Shown: positions 21,936-47,279 of the stretch, piece after piece | How the letters are laid out: each line of letters starts with the position of its first letter | How positions within the stretch are numbered: position 1 is the stretch's first letter | Assembly: GCA_021927905.1 (NCBI GenBank) | Contig: BLLK01000047.1 | Coordinates: forward strand, 2,232,001 to 2,296,000 | DNA from: Chaetoceros tenuissimus | Lineage: Eukaryota > Bacillariophyta > Thalassiosirophyceae > Chaetocerotales > Chaetocerotaceae | Reading direction: 5' to 3' | DNA: 64,000 nt | The notes under the pieces: model-generated | The model's database searches: none | The model's input: the letters and a program-made list of their open reading frames with translations, nothing else | What the model was told of the DNA's origin: nothing | Program-made: the position numbers and the translations under genes

Positions 21936-22387
21936 GATAATAATTGTAGTGCACTGAGTTGATATATTGATGTATTTGGTAATTCAATTGAAACCTAAAC
22001 AAAGTTTTGTGGTTCAAGGTGGAACTAGCACCAACAAGGCAGGGCAGGATACCTGGGGCCGCCCGCGGTGGCGGCCCGCCGGGCGCCGCCATTGATCATC
22101 TTTTATTTGGCTACTGTTTATTACATAACCATCTACGTAAAAATTTCGGTTAAAGCAAGTTTAACGTTCGCCACTCTGTTCAGTCACTTTATTCTTTTCC
22201 AGTATTTCTTCCGAGGCACCTGAGGCACTTCAAAGACATTGGGAGGTCATCAACTTCGTGAATAGGCCGAAGTAAGCACCATCCATTGGTCTTTTAGTGT
22301 CGTTCATTCGCTCATTCTATCATAATCCAAATACATTTACAGTATTTTCGAGGAGCGATAGAACATAGAACAGAAGGCCTAAAATCC
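21936..22387. promoter_or_regulatory. Divergent intergenic region with a GC-only hairpin block
   Basis: About 450 bp between the starts of SPCS2 and the PAPS transporter gene. Bases 22055-22090 are all G or C except one T, in an otherwise AT-rich window. 22056-22063 and 22070-22077 form a perfect 8-bp inverted repeat (GGGCCGCC/GGCGGCCC) around a 6-nt loop, and GCCCGCCGGGC at 22074-22084 is a second palindrome. The block could be a real structural element or a sequence artefact. Confidence 0.6.
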
Positions 22388-23778
22388 ATGTGCAACGCGA
22401 CCCCAGTAACTAGTTCAGAAAGATCTCAAGCCCCGTGCTCGCCGAGTAGTAGAGATAAAATGTTTACAAATAGCAGAAGCATCAAGCAGTCACGGTCTAA
22501 TGAAGACCTTATGGCTCTGAAGCAAGAGGTGGAAATGGAGATGAACTTGCTTGAAAGAAATGATTCTGCAACTTATTCAATGTGGAATAAATTGAATTCT
22601 TCTCAGCAGTTTATGATGTTGACTTTCACAATGTTTTTGTTCTTTGGAATGCATAACATTTTACAAGAAGCTATGATGAAGGTTGAAGGCTTTCATGGTG
22701 TCATGCTGGCATATATGGAAGTTCTAGGGTAAGTGATTATCATATGTTCTGTTGATGAGTTCGTGTGTTGATAGAACAAGACATGTATATCAAAGGACTG
22801 CATGTCATTCTTCTTGAAACACTGTATATTAGCAATGTTTTGTTGGTGAGCTCCTGACTCCTGAGTTCAGGGATTTCACTTGACATTAATTACACTTCAC
22901 TAATTTTTCATTTCTTCTTCAATAATTTCAGAGTTACGATATGTTCCTACATTGAAAGAAAATACGTTGCCAAAGAAACTGGACGAGTAGCTCCACTCGC
23001 ATCATATCCTTTGCTGACATTTTGCCTCATGGCATCCTCTAGTCTATCTAATATCTCACTCAATTATATCAACTTTCCAACAAAAGTTGTTTTCCGATCT
23101 TGTAAGCTCATTCCAACTATGATCATTGCTACAATTATCAATAGAAGAGTTTTCAAATCATATGAATATGCTTCAGCAATTGCCATATCTGTGGGAATGG
23201 TTGTCTTTGCAGCAACTGACTGGAAGCTGACACCTACTTTCCATCCATTTGGACTGATATTAGTATCATTATCAGTGATTGCAGATGCAATCTTACCAAA
23301 TGCTCAAGAAAGATTATTTGGTAGTGGCTCTTCCAGATTGGAGGTCACATTCTATACAAATGCATTTACCTTGATTGCAATGACTATAACGACAGTCGCC
23401 AGTGGAGATTTGATGAGAGTTATTGATCTTGCTCTAAAAAGTGATACCAATTTGATCACATATATGGTTGTTTATACATTCATATCCTACATTGCCATCA
23501 GTGCATTTATGGCAATCGTAAAGAAATATGGTGGAGTGACTGCAGTATTACTAAGCACAGCAAGAAAAGCAATGACTTTGATTTTGAGCTTTATCTTATT
23601 CCCAAAAGAATTTTCTTGGTACTATGTACTAGGTGCGATATTAGTACTGGGCGGATTATTAGTTGTCAGTTTAGCTAAGCAATACAAGAAAAAGATGGAA
23701 GCTATGAAAAATGGAGGAAGTGAAAGTGAATTAAAACCACTTCACAACAATGACGTTGAAAACCAACAGAATAATTGA
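22388..23778 (+). CDS. PAPS transporter, SLC35B3-like (2 exons)
   Basis: Model join(22388..22728, 22932..23778), 395 residues; the 203-nt intron is GT-AG and splits a Gly codon (GG|A). About nine to ten membrane segments follow a polar Ser-rich N-terminus. The central signature SNISLNYINFPTKVVFRSCKLIPTMI matches the SLC35B group (GLSNTSLGYLNYPTQVIFKCCKLIP in B3), as do ADAILPNAQE and STARKAMTLILSFILFPKEF. These Golgi antiporters import 3'-phosphoadenosine 5'-phosphosulfate for sulfation. The C-terminus is cytosolic and charged. The last 45 codons and 3' flank are copied at 26181-26495 as part of a tandem duplication. SLC35B2 or a UDP-sugar carrier is a less likely alternative. Confidence 0.88.
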
Positions 23779-23963
23779 AATTGATGGAAAAAATACTTGA
23801 AATGAAAGGAAAGATTAATACTCAACCATACGATGATGTTGAAAAAAATAGAACTAATGAGGAAGAGAAATGCAATAAAAGGATAGATTTAAAGTTAATT
23901 GAAGTTGATATGCTATGTATGTTCTTGTTAAATATGATGGCTATGTCCAATATTTTAAAATTC

Positions 23964-25010
23964 TCAACCACCATAACACCACATCGCACATTCAGCAACA
24001 GGGCAGCACTCTCCTGGTTGAAGTGTTTCAACGAAACAATCGACGCCACAATATGGATCATTGGATTCACCACACGCACCGCATGGATTATTGCATTTAG
24101 TATTTTCACATGTGAACATAATTCCTTCTTCTTCTGGTAATGCGCAAACAGCAGTTGGACAATCCTCGCCAGCGAAGGTGATCTCCTTACAAATTTGATC
24201 AGTACCGCACCATTTTGTAGCGCAAGGGTTGCTGTCACACTCAGGAGGTGTGTACGGCTTGCATTCATAGTCTGGATTAGGTGAACATCTCACTTCACTT
24301 ACACAACAATGACCTGGTTTTGCGTAGCTTTCGCATATTTCGTTCTCTCTGCACGAATCAGCTCGGCACAAATCATTTGTGAAGCACAATACCTTTGAGC
24401 AATCTTCGACGCATTTTGCATCATGGCAACATTGACCGTCTTCCTTCGGAAATCTCTCACAAACTTCGTGTTCTCCACACTTATGGTCAAAACATGGATC
24501 TGAACATCGCACAAGTGAACAGTCGACTGGTGGTGGAGGGGGAGAGCACTTTGGTTCGGAATGACAACAAGATCCTTCAGCCAATACACTTTCACAAGTG
24601 TAGCCTTCTGGACAGGCATCTTCAGTACACGCATTCATGACGGCACATTTGACCAAAGAACAGTCTAGCTCTTGTTTTGCGCAATGTGCCTTGGGGCAGC
24701 ATTGGCCATCAAGCAAGGGTAGGTTCTCGCAAACTTCTTCAATCTGGCATTTTATACCATTGCAAGGGTCATCACACGAAATGCCATCGCATGGGTTTGG
24801 GTCCTCTGTAGACGGTTTTCCTTCTTCATCTGTTGTGCATTTCTGTAGCGGTGAGCACTTTGCACGCAAGCAGCATTCATTTTTCCTCACTTTCTTATCC
24901 GGGGTGCAAATTTGATCAAAGTCACATGGATTATGGCCTTCCATACATGGGTCTTCTGGGCATTCTTGATCACACTCAACTTCTGTGCAGTCCATTTGCT
25001 TCCTAGAAGG
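23964..25010 (-). pseudogene. Broken left copy of the cysteine-rich repeat gene, 3' part
   Basis: The frame reads the last ~345 residues of the cysteine-rich protein described at 26496-28094, ending in the same CAMWCYGG. An ATG supplied at the border of the inserted DNA (25014-25016) would give a 350-residue product without a signal peptide. Compared with the right copy it lacks 92 residues (two repeat units) in frame, so TEVEC is joined directly to DQECPEDPC. The join lies in a shared CACACT word, as expected for deletion or slippage between short direct repeats. The 5' part is displaced to 25968-26180 by the insertion. All cysteines in the remaining repeats are kept, so decay is recent or the fragment is still homogenised by its twin. 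Confidence 0.8.
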
Positions 25011-25967
25011 ACTCAAAGGAGAAATAGCACTACGAAGGTACTTCTTTACAGGGTCCTAGAGATTGAAGAATGGATGTGTTAGTTCAGGGTATGATATCTC
25101 CTCAACAAATGTATATGCTTGATCGAACAATACAATATGTACTTACCTCGATTGCAAAGGAGGTTGGAAGCAAAGCAGCAGATGCTGCGAACAAGAGAGT
25201 AGAGAATTTCATGATTACTTTTGGAGATTTGAAAAATTATGAGAGAAAGCTTTTCTTTGAAAACTACTTTTTATGTGATGATTGTCTTAGGTATAGCTCG
25301 GAACGCTTCTTTTGTAGGTCAGATCAAATGGGTTTCCCTTTCTATACTTTTCCGGAAGAGAGGAATTATTTAAAATCTCATCCTTTATAGAAAATAGTCT
25401 GATTATTTATTTTCTTCACTAATAACGAATAATATTTTGAGATTGCATGAGAACATTGATAAAAAGGATAGGAATTAGGCCTTACTTTTGACAGAGAAGG
25501 CAATGTAAAAATAGAAATTGCTCAAGTCGTGCTGGCCAAATTTTCAATCTACCCCGAACAAAGGGGAAACCCAGCACTACCGAGAGCTGTAATTTACTGC
25601 ATGATCTGCAGTACTTTAGAGAAAAAGGATTCGGCAAGAGAGAAGCCAAGTAGTACTTTAGGGTTCAGAAGGGCTCGACAAGAAGAGAGAAGCTCAAAGA
25701 GTTTGGTAAACGAGAAACTCAGATAGGCACCTACCAACTATCAGATAGTAGAGCACGACCCGGCACACCTTCTTGATAATTTTGATTTGAAAAGGTGAAA
25801 GGTTATTATTGGTCAGCAATTTTATTTCTTTCGAAAGTGCGATGTACGAATTTTCCTGCCTGCCTGCCTTTCCAAGCAAGCTAGCACTTCTTATCGTGTC
25901 AAACAATATGTACGATGCAATAAAGAAGCATTTGAAGTATGGTTTAGCGCATCATTCCAAGTAATTA
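25008..25967. other. Insertion of unknown DNA inside the left cysteine-rich copy
   Basis: About 960 bp separate two pieces of the left gene copy whose ends adjoin each other in the right copy (near CATCCCAAAGAAACAAATG). The insert is neither similar to the neighbouring genes nor flanked by clear terminal inverted repeats; a target duplication of more than 3-5 bp was not found. It contains a 106-codon open frame at 25070-25390 (+) and a 65-codon frame at 25529-25726 (+), neither recognisable. GTACTTTAG and AGAGAGAAGC words recur at ~25611-25695. It could be a captured genomic filler or a non-autonomous element. Confidence 0.6.
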
Positions 25968-26180
25968 CACTCTTTGGATGCACTTAGAGTCAGGACAGCA
26001 TTGACCATCAGAAAGTCTTCTCTTGAATTTACAAGAATGGTCTTCGCTACAAATATTTCCATCCCCAAGGCAAGGGTTTTCACAGAAAATGTTGCGGCAA
26101 AATTTTGGCCTGGTAATTCTAGTCAAAAATCTATGAAACTTTTCGTCGTGAACAGAGTTGTGGGAAAGCTTTCCGATGTC
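25968..26180 (-). pseudogene. Displaced 5' fragment of the left cysteine-rich copy
   Basis: On the minus strand this reads a version of residues ~25-95 of the cysteine-rich protein (KLSHNSVHDEKFHRFLTRI...RRLSDGQCCPDSKC). It lacks the start codon and signal peptide because the duplication boundary falls at 26180/26181, where it is fused to the copied 3' end of the transporter gene. By eye about 13 substitutions and one indel separate it from 27816-28021, near 6%, much more than the ~1% in the 3' part of the same unit. Confidence 0.8.
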
Positions 26181-26316
26181 AGTACTGGGCGGATTATTAG
26201 TTGTCAGTTTAGCTAAGCAATACAAGAAAAAGATGGAAGCTATGAAAAATGGAGGAAGTGAAAGTGAATTAAAACCACTTCACAACAATGACGTTGAAAA
26301 CCAACAGAATAATTGA
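26181..26316 (+). pseudogene. Duplicated 3' end of the PAPS transporter gene
   Basis: An identical copy of the last ~45 codons (from GTACTGGGCGG to the TGA) of the transporter at 23643-23778. It has no promoter or start and is a passive part of the tandem duplication; the downstream spacer to the cysteine-rich gene is also copied, with a 6-bp deletion just at the stop. Confidence 0.85.
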
Positions 26317-26495
26317 TGGAAAAAATACTTGAAATGAAAGGAAAGATTAATACTCAACCATACGATGATGTTGAAAAAAATAGAACTAATGAGGAAGAGA
26401 AATGCAATAAAAGGATAGATTTAAAGTTAATTGAAGTTGATATGCTATGTATGTTCTTGTTAAATATGATGGCTATGTCCGATATTTTAAAATTC

Positions 26496-28094
26496 TCAAC
26501 CACCATAACACCACATCGCACATTCAGCAACAGGGCAGCACTCTCCTGGTTGAAGTGTTTCAACGAAACAATCGACGCCACAATATGGATCATTGGATTC
26601 ACCACACGCACCGCATGGATTTTTACATTTAGTATTTTCACATGTGAACATAATTCCTTCTTCTTCTGGTAATGCGCAAACAGCAGTTGGACAATCCTCG
26701 CCAGCGAAGGTGATCTCCTTACAAATTTGATCAGTACCGCACCATTTTGTAGCGCAAGGGTTGCTGTCACACTCAGGGGGTGTGTACGGCTTGTATTCAT
26801 AGTCTGGATTAGGTGAACATCTCACTTCACTTACACAACAATGACCTGGTTTTGCGTAGCTTTCGCATATTTCGTTCTCTCTGCACGAATCAGCTCGGCA
26901 CAAATCATTTGTGAAGCACAATACCTTTGAGCAATCTTCGACGCATTTTGCATCATGGCAACATTGACCGTCTTCCTTCGGAAATCTCTCACAAACTTCG
27001 TGTTCTCCACACTTATGGTCAAAACATGGATCTGAACATCGCACAAGTGAACAGTCGACTGGTGGTGAAGGGGGAGAGCACTTTGGTTCGGAATGACAAC
27101 AAGATCCTTCAGCCAATACACTTTCACAAGTGTAGCCTTCTGGACAGGCATCTTCAGTACACGCATTCATGACGGCACATTTGACCAAAGAACAGTCTAG
27201 CTCTTGTTTTGCGCAATGTGCCTTGGGGCAGCATTGGCCATCAAGCAAGGGTAGGTTCTCGCAAACTTCTTCAATCTGGCATTTTATACCATTGCAAGGG
27301 TCATCACACGAAATGCCATCGCATGGGTTTGGGTCCTCTGTAGACGGTTTTCCTTCTTCATCTGTTGTGCCTTCCTCTAGCGGTGAGCACTTTGCACGCA
27401 AGCAGCATTCATTTTTCCTCACTTTCTTAGCCGGGGTGCAAATTTGATCAAAGTCACATGGATTATGGCCTTCCATACATGGGTCTTCTGGGCATTCTTG
27501 ATCACACTTGATTTGCTCCTTGAAAAAGCATTTTGGCTCTGGGCAACATTCATTTTTTCTAATACGGTGAGAAACTCTGCAGTACTCATCATCTCCACAC
27601 GGATTCCATTCATTAGAGCAGGGGTCCCTACATTGTTCAGGGCAATTCTTTGGCCTTAGAGGCTTTCTTTTCTTTTTGCATTTTGAGCGTAGGCAGCACT
27701 CGTTCTTGCGGATTCTCTTTGCTGTAGTGCATACTTCGTCACTGTTACAAGGGTTGTTCCCGTGACTACATGGCTCCACACACTCAACTTCTGTGCAGTC
27801 CATTTGTTTCTTTGGGATGCACTTGGAGTCAGGGCAGCATTGACCATCAGAAAGTCTTCTCTTGAATTTACAAGAATGGTCTTCACCACAAATGTTTCCA
27901 TCCCCAAGACAAGGGTTTTCACAGGGTATGTTGCGGCAAAATTTTGGTCTGCTAATTCTAGTCAAAAATCTATGAAACTTTTCGTCATGATCAGAGTTGT
28001 GGGAAAGCTTTCCGATATCAGAGAGCTGTCCTTCCTTCGCAGCTATGCTTGTTCCAAGCAGAGGAATCCATGGTAAAACCAGAGCTACCCTCAT
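26496..28094 (-). CDS. Secreted cysteine-rich protein with ten ~40-residue repeats
   Basis: 532 residues, one exon. Residues 1-19 (MRVALVLPWIPLLGTSIAA) are a signal peptide. From residue ~50 to the end about ten repeats follow, each roughly C-x3-C-x2-P-C-x4-C-x5-C-x7-9-G-x-C-C-x3-4-C, for example CSLVRCSDPCFDHKC...CERF...GQCCHDAKC. The end of each repeat (G-x-CC-P-x2-x-C) recalls von Willebrand C modules, but the spacing of the first half is different. Linkers are Pro/Asp/Glu/Lys-rich. Such a protein is probably a disulfide-rod extracellular or cell-wall component; I recognise no named family. This is the intact right copy of the tandem duplication, convergent with the transporter tail copy. 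Confidence 0.85.
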   Translation of the reverse strand: MRVALVLPWIPLLGTSIAAKEGQLSDIGKLSHNSDHDEKFHRFLTRISRPKFCRNIPCENPCLGDGNICGEDHSCKFKRRLSDGQCCPDSKCIPKKQMDCTEVECVEPCSHGNNPCNSDEVCTTAKRIRKNECCLRSKCKKKRKPLRPKNCPEQCRDPCSNEWNPCGDDEYCRVSHRIRKNECCPEPKCFFKEQIKCDQECPEDPCMEGHNPCDFDQICTPAKKVRKNECCLRAKCSPLEEGTTDEEGKPSTEDPNPCDGISCDDPCNGIKCQIEEVCENLPLLDGQCCPKAHCAKQELDCSLVKCAVMNACTEDACPEGYTCESVLAEGSCCHSEPKCSPPSPPVDCSLVRCSDPCFDHKCGEHEVCERFPKEDGQCCHDAKCVEDCSKVLCFTNDLCRADSCRENEICESYAKPGHCCVSEVRCSPNPDYEYKPYTPPECDSNPCATKWCGTDQICKEITFAGEDCPTAVCALPEEEGIMFTCENTKCKNPCGACGESNDPYCGVDCFVETLQPGECCPVAECAMWCYGG

Positions 28095-28736
28095 TTGCAG
28101 AAAAAGATGAATTTATATAAGGATAAGTAATTGTTGTTTTGATTACCTCTCAATTATTACATGAGTGAACATGTTCTTGAGGTGAGAAGTCTATCCAATG
28201 ATGATGATCTTCTGACGGTGAGAAGTCTATCCAAATAATGGGACTAAAATCACGACTCGACTCAAACGTCATTGTTCTCCTCATTTTTTGGAAAGTGTAA
28301 ATCATCGTTATGTTTTCACTGCGTGTCTTCTATCTCTTGAAAAACTAGATTGGTATAAAAGCAGTATAAATTTTGCAGTATAAATTTTGACAAACCGGTA
28401 TATTTTAGGTCTTTTCCACATCCTTGTGGCTACAAAGATAAGTCGCGATATGCATCACATGTTAAAGATGAAAAGTGGTCAAAGCCTCACATTTTGAAGC
28501 ATGGTCTTTTGAATTGAGTAATAAAAAGGACTAGTCAGATGCCCATTTTTTGAGTGTCCTGTTCCTAAAACTTCTAGTTAGTGGAAATCCTCAATTCAAT
28601 GACATAATTGTGGATAAAGAAATGATCGCGTGCAATGAACGCAATCATTCATCATGAGCTAGATTTTCATACAGTCTTTTTACTTGTAAAATCAGTTTCT
28701 CACTAATCTATGTAAATTATTTTAATTTCCCAGTTA
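28095..28736. promoter_or_regulatory. Upstream region of the cysteine-rich gene with direct repeats
   Basis: About 640 bp between the start of the cysteine-rich gene and the 3' end of the kinesin gene. It contains an exact 18-bp direct repeat (GGTGAGAAGTCTATCCAA) at 28181-28198 and 28217-28234, and a tandem 14-bp repeat (GCAGTATAAATTTT) at 28361-28388. Both could be promoter elements of the minus-strand gene. The first 100 bp upstream of the ATG include a TATATAA-like word at 28114-28120 (minus strand TTATATAAAT), well placed for a TATA box. Confidence 0.5.
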
Positions 28737-31511
28737 TTACTTCTTATATGATACGTGTTTGGTTGCTTTTCCTAACTCAACTTGATTCACCCTCTGTGCG
28801 AACCGTAGGGAACAGAGACTTTCACTACTACTCTCGATTGTAGGGCTCAAATTCACAAACATGAGTGCCTTTCCATCTCCACTTAGACAATCTTGGAGAA
28901 GATATGTAAGCTTTGAATTTCTGAAAGGAACATGTGAAGATCCATTGGACAAGGCTGTAAAGACGTCTCCGAGACAACTTAAGCTCTTGTTGATAGCTTG
29001 GGTCTCTTTCAGGCGCTTGGTATCACTTCCTGCTCCACTGCGATCTAATCGTTCACTTCCTGCAAGGTCACATAGATTAAGCGCTCCTTCCACTATTGTG
29101 CCATCATCCTCATTAACTCCATTCAAATGTAGCATGAAAACAGAATGACTTCTGGAACTGACGGAGTTCATCTTTGTAGATGCTACAGATCGAGCACGTG
29201 CTGCTGCTGACATTACATTCTTCAGGCATTGCATTCCAATTTCAGAGTCTTCGGTATCGATGGCTATCTTCTTAAGTCCAGCTACATAACTTCTTCCATC
29301 GCGTTCACGGCGAATTGAAAGTTTACTCTGATCCTTGGATTGATTTCTTGTAGACATTCCAGGTCCTCCCGTAATTGTTCCTTCGTTCATGTTCACAAGC
29401 AAGTCTTTTAGTTCTTCGTTATAGATTTCCAAGAAACTTGCAGTCATGTTAAATTTCCATTTCTGCTTTTGCATTGCCTTTGCTTGGGAAAGTATCTGTT
29501 CTACAGCTCTTGGGATAATTCCTCTCATTGTTCCAGAGCCACTTCCTTGCATAGTATGGGTCTTTCCGCTTCCTGTTTGACCATATGAGAACAGGCAGAC
29601 ATGATATCCATCGAGAGCACTCTGAACAAATTCTGAAACTTCTTCAAATACTGCTTCTTGTCCCGAAGAAGGAGTGAAGACCTTATCAAATTTGAAGTCG
29701 TAAGATTTAGATCTGTTTTCGATGGCAAGATTTTCTCCATCTGGATGAATGTCCAAAGAAGATTGTGTGCTGCCATTATCACCTGGTAAGAAGGGTCTTG
29801 TACGAACAAAAACCCTAATATTTCCTCGCAATTCTTGGATTGTATTGTGTAAATCGCGCCTGATTTGTTCTCCCTTCAAAATTTCAGACTCGAGCTGTTC
29901 AATTCTTCTATCCTTCTCTTCAATGCGTGCTCTTAATACAGCTTCATCTTCACTGTCAGTCGAAGCATCATCTCTATCTTCGTTACTAGCGGCTCTACTT
30001 TTTAGTACACTCATTTCAAAAAGCATTTTTTCTCTCTCTTCTTGCCATTCGCGCTCTTTCTGTTCCATATCAAATTTGCTTTGAGTTTGCAGAGATGCAA
30101 GTTCCCCGGCTGTTGCATTCAATTGTGCCAACATAGCAGTATGCTCTTTCGACAACTCTTCCAATTGTATCTCAGCTTCACCATTTGCTTCTTTGTCTGC
30201 TCGCAAAATGTTGTACTCTTCTTCCATTTCTTCGAAGGCTCTTGTTAATGCTGACAACTCCATATTCGTAGCATCGATCTCACTTTCGATTGAAACCTTT
30301 TCTAATCGCAAACTCTTGATTTCTTCCTCGGCATTCTTGAGTTTCTCCTTGTATTCTTGTAAAATGCGATCATTCTGTACTCTACGACTCCAATCATCGG
30401 TACCAGCACTCTGACCTTCTGCAGATCCCAAAGTTTGCTTACGAATCTCTAATCTTAGTCTACGATTTTCTTCTTGCAACTCCTCCTTTTGATTCTCGAG
30501 AGATTTGAACTTTTCTGAATCGCCATAGGCACTTGATCTCAATTCTGAGATTTCTTCATCAAACTTCACACGAAGTTTATACAATTCATCCTCTTTCTGA
30601 CGCAGACGCGCTTCAAGCGGTGCCTTGTCCATGGACAATTTCATCTTTTCCTTTTCAAGCTCTTGGACTCTCTTTTCCATAAGAACGAGGCGAGATCTTT
30701 GACCTGGCTGTTGATCTTCATTCACAATATCTTCAAGAAGATCCATACCTTCCATACTATTGAAAGTGTCATTCGCAGTTGTACTGGGAGTTGCAGTTGG
30801 CAATGGCAAAGGAGGGATTGCAGATCTATTGGTCGTTGTAGTTGGAGCATCTAACCCTCGGGATGAAGATAAACCTCCAATTCCAATAGAAGCTCTACCA
30901 GCACGACTACCCGTTCGTCTAACTGCACCACTCAAAACACTCTTTCTTCTATTGGAAATGGGGGTAAAACCAGCTCTAAGGCCAATAGAAGAGGAAGGAG
31001 TATCGTCATCGAAACATATAGAGGAAGCAGTTGACTCTGCAACAGTTGGCGCAGTGTTGACAGAAGAAGCATCTACTTGCATTTTTTGCCTCATTTGTTT
31101 CTTGAGACGAAATCTTTCAAGAGCAGTCATTCCTTCTGTATTTGGTGGAAGTGGAAGTGGAGTACTGTTACTGAACGCCGACGTGGAGGAGGCAGATACA
31201 GGAGCAGTATGTGAGACAGGCTCAGCAGAGTAAGATGAATTCACATCGTTCTCTTTTTCAATAGAAGATTTTGTACCAGACTCCTTGGCACGAATTTCAG
31301 CTCTCCATTCTTCCAACATGGTTCTTCTATCCTTTTTCGGTTCATTACTGTTGACAGAAACATTATCGACATCAAAGGAGGGAGCAAGTCCTCCTTGACC
31401 ACCAAATGATGCTCTTCGTTTCGAGAGAGAAGGTGAACTGCTCCTACCACTGATACGATTTCTCTCTTGAAGAATGGTAGATGGACATAGCGATTGACGT
31501 CCTCTTCTCAT
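28737..31511 (-). CDS. Kinesin-14, C-terminal motor
   Basis: 924 residues, one exon. The N-terminal ~260 residues are Ser/Pro/Arg-rich and unstructured. Residues ~270-560 form long coiled coils (heptads rich in E, L, K, R). The motor begins at ELRGNIRVFVRTRPF, the neck and first strand typical of minus-end-directed kinesin-14. The P-loop is GQTGSGKT (~644), switch I is NSVSSRSHSVF, switch II is LCDLAGSERLDRSGA, and the nucleotide-linked helix reads LTYLLQDCLSGDGKALMFVNLSP. Kinesin-14 proteins crosslink and slide microtubules in the spindle, like KIFC1/Ncd. The motor is at the extreme C-terminus with only ~20 residues after it. Divergent from the Rab1 gene. Confidence 0.95.
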   Translation of the reverse strand: MRRGRQSLCPSTILQERNRISGRSSSPSLSKRRASFGGQGGLAPSFDVDNVSVNSNEPKKDRRTMLEEWRAEIRAKESGTKSSIEKENDVNSSYSAEPVSHTAPVSASSTSAFSNSTPLPLPPNTEGMTALERFRLKKQMRQKMQVDASSVNTAPTVAESTASSICFDDDTPSSSIGLRAGFTPISNRRKSVLSGAVRRTGSRAGRASIGIGGLSSSRGLDAPTTTTNRSAIPPLPLPTATPSTTANDTFNSMEGMDLLEDIVNEDQQPGQRSRLVLMEKRVQELEKEKMKLSMDKAPLEARLRQKEDELYKLRVKFDEEISELRSSAYGDSEKFKSLENQKEELQEENRRLRLEIRKQTLGSAEGQSAGTDDWSRRVQNDRILQEYKEKLKNAEEEIKSLRLEKVSIESEIDATNMELSALTRAFEEMEEEYNILRADKEANGEAEIQLEELSKEHTAMLAQLNATAGELASLQTQSKFDMEQKEREWQEEREKMLFEMSVLKSRAASNEDRDDASTDSEDEAVLRARIEEKDRRIEQLESEILKGEQIRRDLHNTIQELRGNIRVFVRTRPFLPGDNGSTQSSLDIHPDGENLAIENRSKSYDFKFDKVFTPSSGQEAVFEEVSEFVQSALDGYHVCLFSYGQTGSGKTHTMQGSGSGTMRGIIPRAVEQILSQAKAMQKQKWKFNMTASFLEIYNEELKDLLVNMNEGTITGGPGMSTRNQSKDQSKLSIRRERDGRSYVAGLKKIAIDTEDSEIGMQCLKNVMSAAARARSVASTKMNSVSSRSHSVFMLHLNGVNEDDGTIVEGALNLCDLAGSERLDRSGAGSDTKRLKETQAINKSLSCLGDVFTALSNGSSHVPFRNSKLTYLLQDCLSGDGKALMFVNLSPTIESSSESLCSLRFAQRVNQVELGKATKHVSYKK

Positions 31512-32016
31512 TGTTTCTATTGATTGGTAGAAAAGAACTCAAGGAAAGAAAACGAATTCGATTCACAGTAGTTTCTCTCTTATTTCAAATTCAAATATAG
31601 CTCTTGGAAATTGTGTATTGGCCAATTCAATCAGAATGAATCCTATACGACACAGCTTTTTGGATGTGAATAATAGACAGTAGGTTGCTGCTATTTATTT
31701 GTTGTTCGTTTTATTTGTATTCATTTCCGACACAAATGGTACAGATTTTGATGTGAAAACTACTAGCCGTTAGCAAGAAAGAAGCTAAATCCCGTTTATT
31801 CGATAGCTAAATTGAAATATCTGTAGCCAAATAAAAATTCAAAATGTCAATCAGTGTCAAATAGCTTGTTTTTAAAGAAAGGCGTTGCTAAGTGCACCAT
31901 GCCAGGCGTAATTTTGGTGAGGTACGGTTCCAAACCGTTCTTGGTACACCGCTACTTTTTATCACATTCCCTTCTCTATACTTCTTTCCACATCCCATTA
32001 CATAAATAGAACTACA
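31512..32016. promoter_or_regulatory. Divergent intergenic region
   Basis: About 500 bp between the starts of the kinesin-14 and Rab1 genes. It is AT-rich and without convincing coding frames or repeats; both promoters are expected here. Confidence 0.35.
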
Positions 32017-45794: not shown

Positions 45795-47279
45795 CTAATT
45801 TGAAACATGCTTTTGGAGAATTTTACCAAGGTCCGTGGCTGGTGATTTCGCAAAACGGGCTTTTGAAGATACAGCCAGAATATCTGTCCAATACCCCATC
45901 TTGTATTCCTCTGAAGGAAATCTATCTTCAAGATTATAGTACCACATACAAAATTCTTTCAAATTATCGAAGGGAATATTGTTGCGGTCAAATTTGTTCA
46001 AGTAGCCTCCATTATCAGGACTTTTTGGATGACCTATATTCTCCATTGCGAAAAGTTGATAATCATTCTTTGCAAGGAACTCCAAGATTTCAACTGGCTT
46101 TGCGCATTTCTCAGTGGCATCATTCATAAAATCCATTCCTTTTGGCCAAAATTCAAGCAAAATGGTGTCAGCTTTTTGGTTTTCAATAGTACTGTGTAGA
46201 CCAGAAAACACAACTGGTTCAAAGCCTTGAGTATCAATCTTCAATGCATACATGAAATCTATATCGTTCGTAGTTTTGTTTCCTGCCATTTCACGAGCAA
46301 AGTCCTTTGTGGCCGTGATCTTGTTGGATATAATGTCATCAATAGCAACGGACTGGACCTTTACAATATCTTTATCAGAAGAAAATGTATTGTTTGAAGA
46401 AAATTTCGACATCGTCCAAATATCTATTGATCCTCCAACATGATCACCAGTACCACCACCTGATGAAAAATCAAGTTCTTTCCCAGTCTCATTAGATGCT
46501 GCCATTTGGAAGTACCGAACATTCTTCAAAACTGATTTATCTGTTTTTTCAAATTTCCTCATGATTCTTTTTTGTGAGTTTGGACTTGGTTCAACACAGT
46601 ATGCTTGTAAATCATTCCTTGCAATTTTTAGACATTGGTCTGCAGAGTGCATTCCTACTTCCATCAAATTCATGGTAATATTACTATTTTCATTTCGATA
46701 AGCAACTGCTTCTTGAACCAGTAATTTCCAAACTACATCAGCTGTGAAAAGGTCTCTATTTCCACTCATCACCAAATCAGAATTAATCTTGTGCGCAGAC
46801 GTGCTATTTTGCTTCGTCACAGTTGCAGTTGCCATCTTTGCCTTTTCATCATTTGTTTCACCTTCATCAGCAGTGGCGATACTTTCTTCTTGGTTCACTT
46901 CATTTCCCTTTACATCTTCTTGTCCATCCTCATCTGCATCTATTCCATCCTCATCTGCATCTACTACGCCATCTTCATTTCCATCCTCATCTGCATCTAC
47001 GCCATCTTCATCCTCCTCATCCCTTGAAAAAGAACCTGACTTATCATAATATGGTGCTGGTGGGGTCCAGGCAGGCAATGGAATCCTGTCAACCTGTTCG
47101 AATTCATAGGAATGTGATTTCTCTTGGTTCGAAGAAAAATCTAGGGTTTCTCTGGAGTTGTCTTCTATTGTTGTGATGTATAACATGAGCAACATAATCA
47201 TGATTGGTAAAATGCGACCCAAGAGGGTAGCATTAGCATTCTTTTTCCCTTTCTTTGATAACGACTTGATTTTCGGCAT
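45795..47279 (-). CDS. FkbM-type methyltransferase, type II membrane protein
   Basis: 494 residues from ATG 47279; the longer frame begins with TTG. A basic N-terminus (MPKIKSLSKKGKKNANA) and one hydrophobic segment (ILPIMIMLLMLYITTI) give a type II Golgi-like anchor. Residues ~90-130 contain three tandem copies of an acidic (D)ADEDGxxD unit, which may bind calcium or simply extend a stem. The catalytic part begins at MNLMEVGMHSADQCLKIA (SAM motif I region), then AYCVEPSPNSQKRIMRKF, VRYFQMAASNETG, and FMYALKIDTQGFEPVVFSGL with ILLEF, the FkbM hallmarks. FkbM enzymes O-methylate sugars or natural products. A sugar target is plausible for a Golgi form, but this is inferred. Confidence 0.85.
   Translation of the reverse strand: MPKIKSLSKKGKKNANATLLGRILPIMIMLLMLYITTIEDNSRETLDFSSNQEKSHSYEFEQVDRIPLPAWTPPAPYYDKSGSFSRDEEDEDGVDADEDGNEDGVVDADEDGIDADEDGQEDVKGNEVNQEESIATADEGETNDEKAKMATATVTKQNSTSAHKINSDLVMSGNRDLFTADVVWKLLVQEAVAYRNENSNITMNLMEVGMHSADQCLKIARNDLQAYCVEPSPNSQKRIMRKFEKTDKSVLKNVRYFQMAASNETGKELDFSSGGGTGDHVGGSIDIWTMSKFSSNNTFSSDKDIVKVQSVAIDDIISNKITATKDFAREMAGNKTTNDIDFMYALKIDTQGFEPVVFSGLHSTIENQKADTILLEFWPKGMDFMNDATEKCAKPVEILEFLAKNDYQLFAMENIGHPKSPDNGGYLNKFDRNNIPFDNLKEFCMWYYNLEDRFPSEEYKMGYWTDILAVSSKARFAKSPATDLGKILQKHVSN
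46920..47010. repeat. GAxGAxGG-like coding repeat (acidic ADEDG units)
   Basis: Within the FkbM gene, the plus strand reads repeated CATCCTCATCTGCATCTA-type units encoding tandem (D)ADEDG on the minus strand. About four imperfect copies are present with 12- to 18-bp periods, a likely site of length change between alleles. Confidence 0.6.

Follow-up and report, generated by a model that had tools for sequence, protein, structure and literature searches.

A 64,000-nucleotide window of the genome of the diatom Chaetoceros tenuissimus (C34:2232001-2296000, in a genome of 41,027,912 bases and 68 contigs, of which C13, C16, C27, C34, C46 and C59 are named here) contains a transporter gene whose tail is repeated in tandem together with a gene for a cysteine-rich protein. 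Our analysis indicated that this locus is probably composed of two secreted-protein genes, both cysteine-rich and arranged in tandem, with layers of different age and a chimeric left member, and that an old pair, a capture of DNA and a recent tract probably arose in that order. The left gene has a body in common with the right copy and a 5' end in common with an unlinked gene cluster on C27. It reads as a hybrid gene with a borrowed upstream region and secretion signal and not as a headless copy.

A self-BLAST of the window paired positions 23636-24976 with 26174-27508 at 98.7% identity, the duplicated unit proper being 23643-24976 and 26181-27508. Two further collinear blocks were detected, one linking 24971-25002 to 27779-27810 (1 mismatch in 32) and the other linking 25971-26182 to 27809-28021 (93%). 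Besides these left/right blocks, the only pair listed at E <= 1e-6 involved a 43-bp repeat located at 46.9 kb, which argues that the duplication is not due to chance. The duplicated piece starts at 23643, within exon 2 of the transporter gene; use of 28020-28180 as a query recovered the self-match alone, indicating that the duplicated unit ends there. At 26180/26181, coding sequence from the 5' part of the cysteine-rich gene is joined to the last exon of the transporter gene, and a comparison by eye found that the parental sequences have AG in common within an imperfect 9-mer (CGATATCAG and CGATATTAG). An initial annotation of this DNA had described a tandem repeat linking the transporter tail with the cysteine-rich gene, a junction with very short common sequence and a whole right copy, and all three were borne out. 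It had also drawn the unit 23643-26180 as recurring at 26181-28021. The three blocks do recur, but the left and right units are unequal: the left unit contains a 968-bp insert (25003-25970) and lacks 276 bp present in the right unit (27509-27784), and both differences had been missed.

The same annotation held that the left copy lacked a start. The old start is indeed gone, as the relic of the 5' coding part (25971-26180) has no start of its own and is separated from the left body by the insert, but the insert supplies a new ATG at 25212 on the minus strand. From this ATG, an open frame of 385 amino acids (aa) with 59 cysteines runs without a stop over the intron, the insert edge and the deletion, and 17 captured codons continue in frame into the cysteine-rich body. 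The product is most likely a shorter secreted protein, which would be expressed under the promoter of the donor.

Genome searches, in which only the best candidates were scored, matched the insert to a gene cluster on C27. Exon 1 and the upstream region were nearest to C27 unit 2, with 574 of 591 aligned bases identical, and the intron and exon 2 part were nearest to C27 unit 3 (136/142), the intron matching unit 3 at 89 of 91 bases versus 64 of 91 for unit 2. A Fisher contrast of the intron with the promoter-proximal part gave p values of 2e-7 for unit 2 and 0.0035 for unit 3. A 43-base signal-exon pattern with up to 3 mismatches was found at three places in the genome, namely, the left gene and C27 units 1 and 2; unit 3 lacks 9 bp of this pattern and was hence not counted. 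The insert also carries a fragment of a MYND-like-finger gene (25892-25970), which lies beyond the upstream region and is divergent from the signal gene. Members of this family were matched on C27, C59, C16 and C34, and zf-MYND was detected in the MYND-like genes at E values of 0.001 and 0.0004, neither of which reaches the cut-off of Pfam. The layout of the insert is repeated at C27 unit 2, where a MYND-like gene lies directly upstream and divergent. At unit 3 the MYND-like gene is ~3.4 kb upstream with another frame in between, and no MYND-like gene was seen upstream of unit 1 within the stretch examined.

Divergence between the left and right copies was distributed unevenly. Mismatches numbered 0 of 130 in the transporter tail, 1 of 185 in the spacer, 5 of 875 in the 3' coding part, 5 of 164 in 24839-25002 and 14 of 204 in the relic. 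The best change-point fell after 24838 and separated a level of 0.5% (6 of 1,190 from the transporter tail through 24838) from one of 5.2%; none of 2,000 permutations matched it. As the spacer was as alike as the 3' coding part, constraint alone cannot explain this contrast. The tail had been described as identical over ~135 bp and the whole event as very recent. The former holds for the 130 aligned bases, but a 6-bp gap is present at the tail end; the latter holds only to the left of about 24838, but the relic is more than 10 times as diverged, which indicates that events of different age are stacked. A uniformly low divergence produced by one very recent event was ruled out by the change-point together with the relic, and this locus demonstrates that short-tail identity is unsafe for dating a duplication. 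The divergence of the insert from C27 unit 2 (17/591) was above that of the recent tract (p = 7e-5) and below that of the relic (p = 0.019), a comparison of ages that assumes a C27 unit without later conversion.

The type of change in the relic was also examined. Its codons showed 9 silent changes over 39 sites and 7 replacing changes over 165, including two codons at the insert edge; when these edge codons were dropped and site 26178 was added, the 14 differences were sorted by hand into 9 silent and 5 replacing. In simulations with an assumed constraint of 0.15 and an assumed transition bias of 7, at least 9 silent changes were obtained in 5% of 74 draws for a relic taken as dead at the outset, in 86% of 135 draws for two copies under constraint and in 0 of 106 draws for two neutral copies. 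These results lean weakly toward two genes that both worked for some time.

The favoured history would thus begin with an old duplication that gave rise to two copies. C27-type DNA comprising the MYND-gene fragment, upstream region, signal exon, intron and start of exon 2 would then have been pasted into the left copy, giving the left body a new start; break repair is the probable route because no element ends were seen. Finally, the transporter tail, spacer and 3' body would have been copied or converted between the copies in a recent event. This tract would be bounded by a point near 24838 inside the body and, at its other limit, by the AG joint, a pattern expected of repair that was initiated by homology and completed by end joining.

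Several observations weigh against this history. The insert is a patchwork of a unit-2-like upstream region, a unit-3-like intron and 145 bp with no match, suggesting that the donor was lost, was recombinant or comprised more than one locus. Its MYND piece is nearer to the copies on C59 (86 to 87% identity) and at C27:1686499 (92% over 62 bp) than to the copy beside unit 2 (77%). The simpler reading of this patchwork would be a single donor stretch, derived from an array unit that was lost or was recombinant, and construction of the insert by several separate captures is possible. Furthermore, the bodies bear no sign of constraint since the recent event, with 2 silent changes over 200 sites and 7 replacing changes over 808, and these similar rates mean that the left gene could be drifting. 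The gene and its junctions are known from the assembled sequence of one strain, and the order of the steps rests on few sites and on a small simulation with assumed settings.

As the main alternative, a single simple tandem duplication would have run from the transporter tail as far as about codon 25. The left copy would then have been headless at birth and would have received the insert later. Repeated gene conversion with the right copy would have preserved the similarity of the tail, spacer and body, and the relic would have drifted. Such a history needs one junction only and keeps the unit as first annotated, and a halt of conversion at the insert and the deletion would be normal. However, conversion would have to reach fully up to 23643, where homology stops, as the tail has no mismatch, and the relic appears too rich in silent changes for a dead piece, a weak argument given the draws cited above. 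We regard this history as the less likely one; it shares the chimera with the favoured history, and both contradict one very recent event. It is likewise doubtful that the left copy is a pseudogene in which the insert is filler DNA with an in-frame start by luck. The similar silent and replacing rates of the bodies and the loss of about two modules would fit such a pseudogene, but the signal exon, splice sites, insert-body joint and 276-bp deletion all preserve the frame, and 385 codons are read without a stop.

An assembly artefact, either a misjoin or alleles of a heterozygous diploid set end to end, was considered improbable. For strain NIES-3715 of C. tenuissimus, the genome report gives a heterozygosity of 1.56% and describes a MinION/Illumina hybrid assembly, and its reference list names MaSuRCA and HaploMerger2 (PMC8613185). 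If that published genome applies here, the divergence of the recent tract falls within this heterozygosity. The 968-bp insert, the 276-bp deletion and the 7% divergence of the relic are, however, well above average heterozygosity, queries with 23600-26180 and 28020-28180 gave no full second copy on another contig, and the window (GC content, 38.7%) contains no N. Insertion of a mobile element carrying a promoter and signal exon was rejected as highly improbable: the C27 start does also precede a beta-propeller body, and a weak inverted pair (25 nt, 72% complementary) is located within the insert, ~40 bp from either end, but the ends proper have no inverted repeat, any target duplication is a few bases at most as judged by eye, and the genome searches, limited to the best candidates, found few copies, with the signal gene elsewhere in one C27 cluster only.

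Table 1. Features of the duplicated locus and the adjoining transporter gene (positions in the window)
Feature	Position	Strand	Basis
UAA-family transporter gene, two exons	22388 (or ATG 22460)-22729 and 22933-23778	+	Reading frame, splice sites
Transporter tail, left copy, inside the whole transporter gene	23643-23778	+	Aligned to right copy
Spacer separating the stop codons of two convergent genes (transporter and left cysteine-rich)	23779-23963		Left-right alignment
Exon 2 of left chimeric gene, comprising 17 captured codons (about 25005-25055) and the cysteine-rich body up to the stop	23964-25055	-	Frame translation
Left gene intron, 91 bp, GTAAGT...CTCTAG	25056-25146	-	Splice sites; 89/91 aligned bases as C27 unit 3
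Left gene exon 1, 22 codons encoding the signal peptide from the ATG	25147-25212	-	66/66 bases as C27 unit 2; signal peptide assigned by eye
Captured upstream region (putative promoter and 5' untranslated region), ~530 bp, C27 unit-2-like	25213-25746	-	Alignment
Insert part with no genome match	25747-25891		Two genome searches, E <= 10
MYND-like-finger gene fragment in insert	25892-25970	+	Genome matches
Relic with coding sequence of the cysteine-rich gene (5' part, about codons 25-95)	25971-26180	-	14/204 sites differ from right copy
Junction of relic with second transporter tail	26180-26181		AG common to both
Second, orphan transporter tail copy	26181-26316	+	Duplication block
Right cysteine-rich gene, whole, single exon, 532 aa, 80 Cys	26496-28094	-	Frame
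Segment of 276 bp (92 codons, ~two cysteine modules) in right gene, absent from left	27509-27784	-	Self-comparison

The 276-bp segment of the right gene has CACACT at both edges, and its loss keeps the frame in the left copy. Eukaryotic relatives were sought within the same genome, where a search with the cysteine-rich protein detected, besides the present locus, two matches on C46 and three weak matches on C13. A C46 paralogue exhibited 48% identity to residues 35-390 of the right-gene protein and, by eye, shows its four N-terminal modules in the same order. The presence of these modules in the paralogue suggested that the right gene is the older form and that the 276 bp were lost from the left copy. 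For the right-gene protein, no Pfam or NCBIfam family was detected at E <= 0.1 and no PDB sequence at E <= 1, and one protein scan of a viral collection detected no viral relative. No literature on this locus was found at the level of titles and abstract openings, which is not proof of absence.

A second use of the C27 secretion start was observed within the donor cluster. Unit 3 has a signal exon of the same kind, shorter by 9 bp, and an N-domain 57% identical to those of units 1 and 2. A beta-propeller body (PF09826) follows from 1683137, with DNA 88 to 89% identical to C27:2107.8-2110.4 kb, and the combination of signal peptide, N-domain and beta-propeller body spans C27:1682550-1685161. 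By eye, the beta-propeller paralogue at C27:2107.8 kb starts with a membrane-anchor-like segment instead. The frames at the unit 3 joint do not meet unspliced, a stop being reached after 138 codons; 53 GT-AG pairs would connect them, a count that is uninformative, and this may be a broken fusion. A more speculative proposal, which we advance only tentatively, is that the C27 cluster has repeatedly donated a promoter-plus-secretion start, grafted on at least two unrelated bodies (cysteine-rich and PF09826 beta-propeller) and converting copies to secreted proteins under new regulation; template-switching repair is a possible route. Other features of the cluster were a ~4.7-kb tandem duplication (C27:1669830-1674446 and 1674756-1679395; 95.7% identity), in which both units have MYND-gene frames with the same reading and the signal-gene introns and upstream parts visibly differ, and one MYND-family match with an in-frame TAG (C27:1687917-1688834).

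Residues 52-337 of the transporter protein matched PF08449 (UAA) with an E value of 6.4e-48, and a comparison with solved structures found three sequences, all of them SLC35B1 chains (E = 8e-14). The gene was predicted to encode a UAA-family transporter; these matches are compatible with, but not proof of, PAPS as the cargo. Directly upstream lies a GC island (window positions 22034-22100) that reaches 86% in 50 bp, the highest value of all 50-bp stretches in the window, and a genome search with this island gave the self-match only. On the other side of the locus, a 933-aa open frame on the minus strand (28737-31538), with a C-terminal part judged by eye to be kinesin-motor-like, has its 3' end facing the start of the right cysteine-rich gene. 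The 43-bp repeat mentioned above consists of two adjoining direct repeats at 46913-47012 that are 88% alike.

The formation of hybrid genes from partial duplications is already known, so that the interest of this locus is moderate; it is a new and well-preserved case. If the left gene is expressed, it would represent the birth of a hybrid gene for which the donor cluster, host body, old 5' end and sister gene are all present, and the order of the steps is hence testable in other strains. The transporter matches the UAA family (PF08449) and SLC35B and differs from these in the part it plays here, as it contributes just its tail to the rearrangement. A gene family of Schistosoma japonicum resembles the C27-type genes in that, as Mbanefo et al. 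(2012, PMC3434034) describe, a core promoter and signal sequence are common to its members and were spread by duplication at the DNA level, with the motif in 27 UniGene entries, flanking repetitive elements and reported expression. The diatom locus differs in having few copies and no repeat ends and in being known from its sequence. Chimeric new genes also arose through partial duplication and exon shuffling in Drosophila, as exemplified by jingwei and Sdic, and the likeness lies in a partial gene copy that turns into a gene by gaining regulatory and coding pieces from elsewhere. In contrast to jingwei and Sdic, the borrowed pieces here are an upstream region and a secretion signal with an intron, they were placed in just one of two tandem copies and the old 5' end can still be recognized, stranded beside them.

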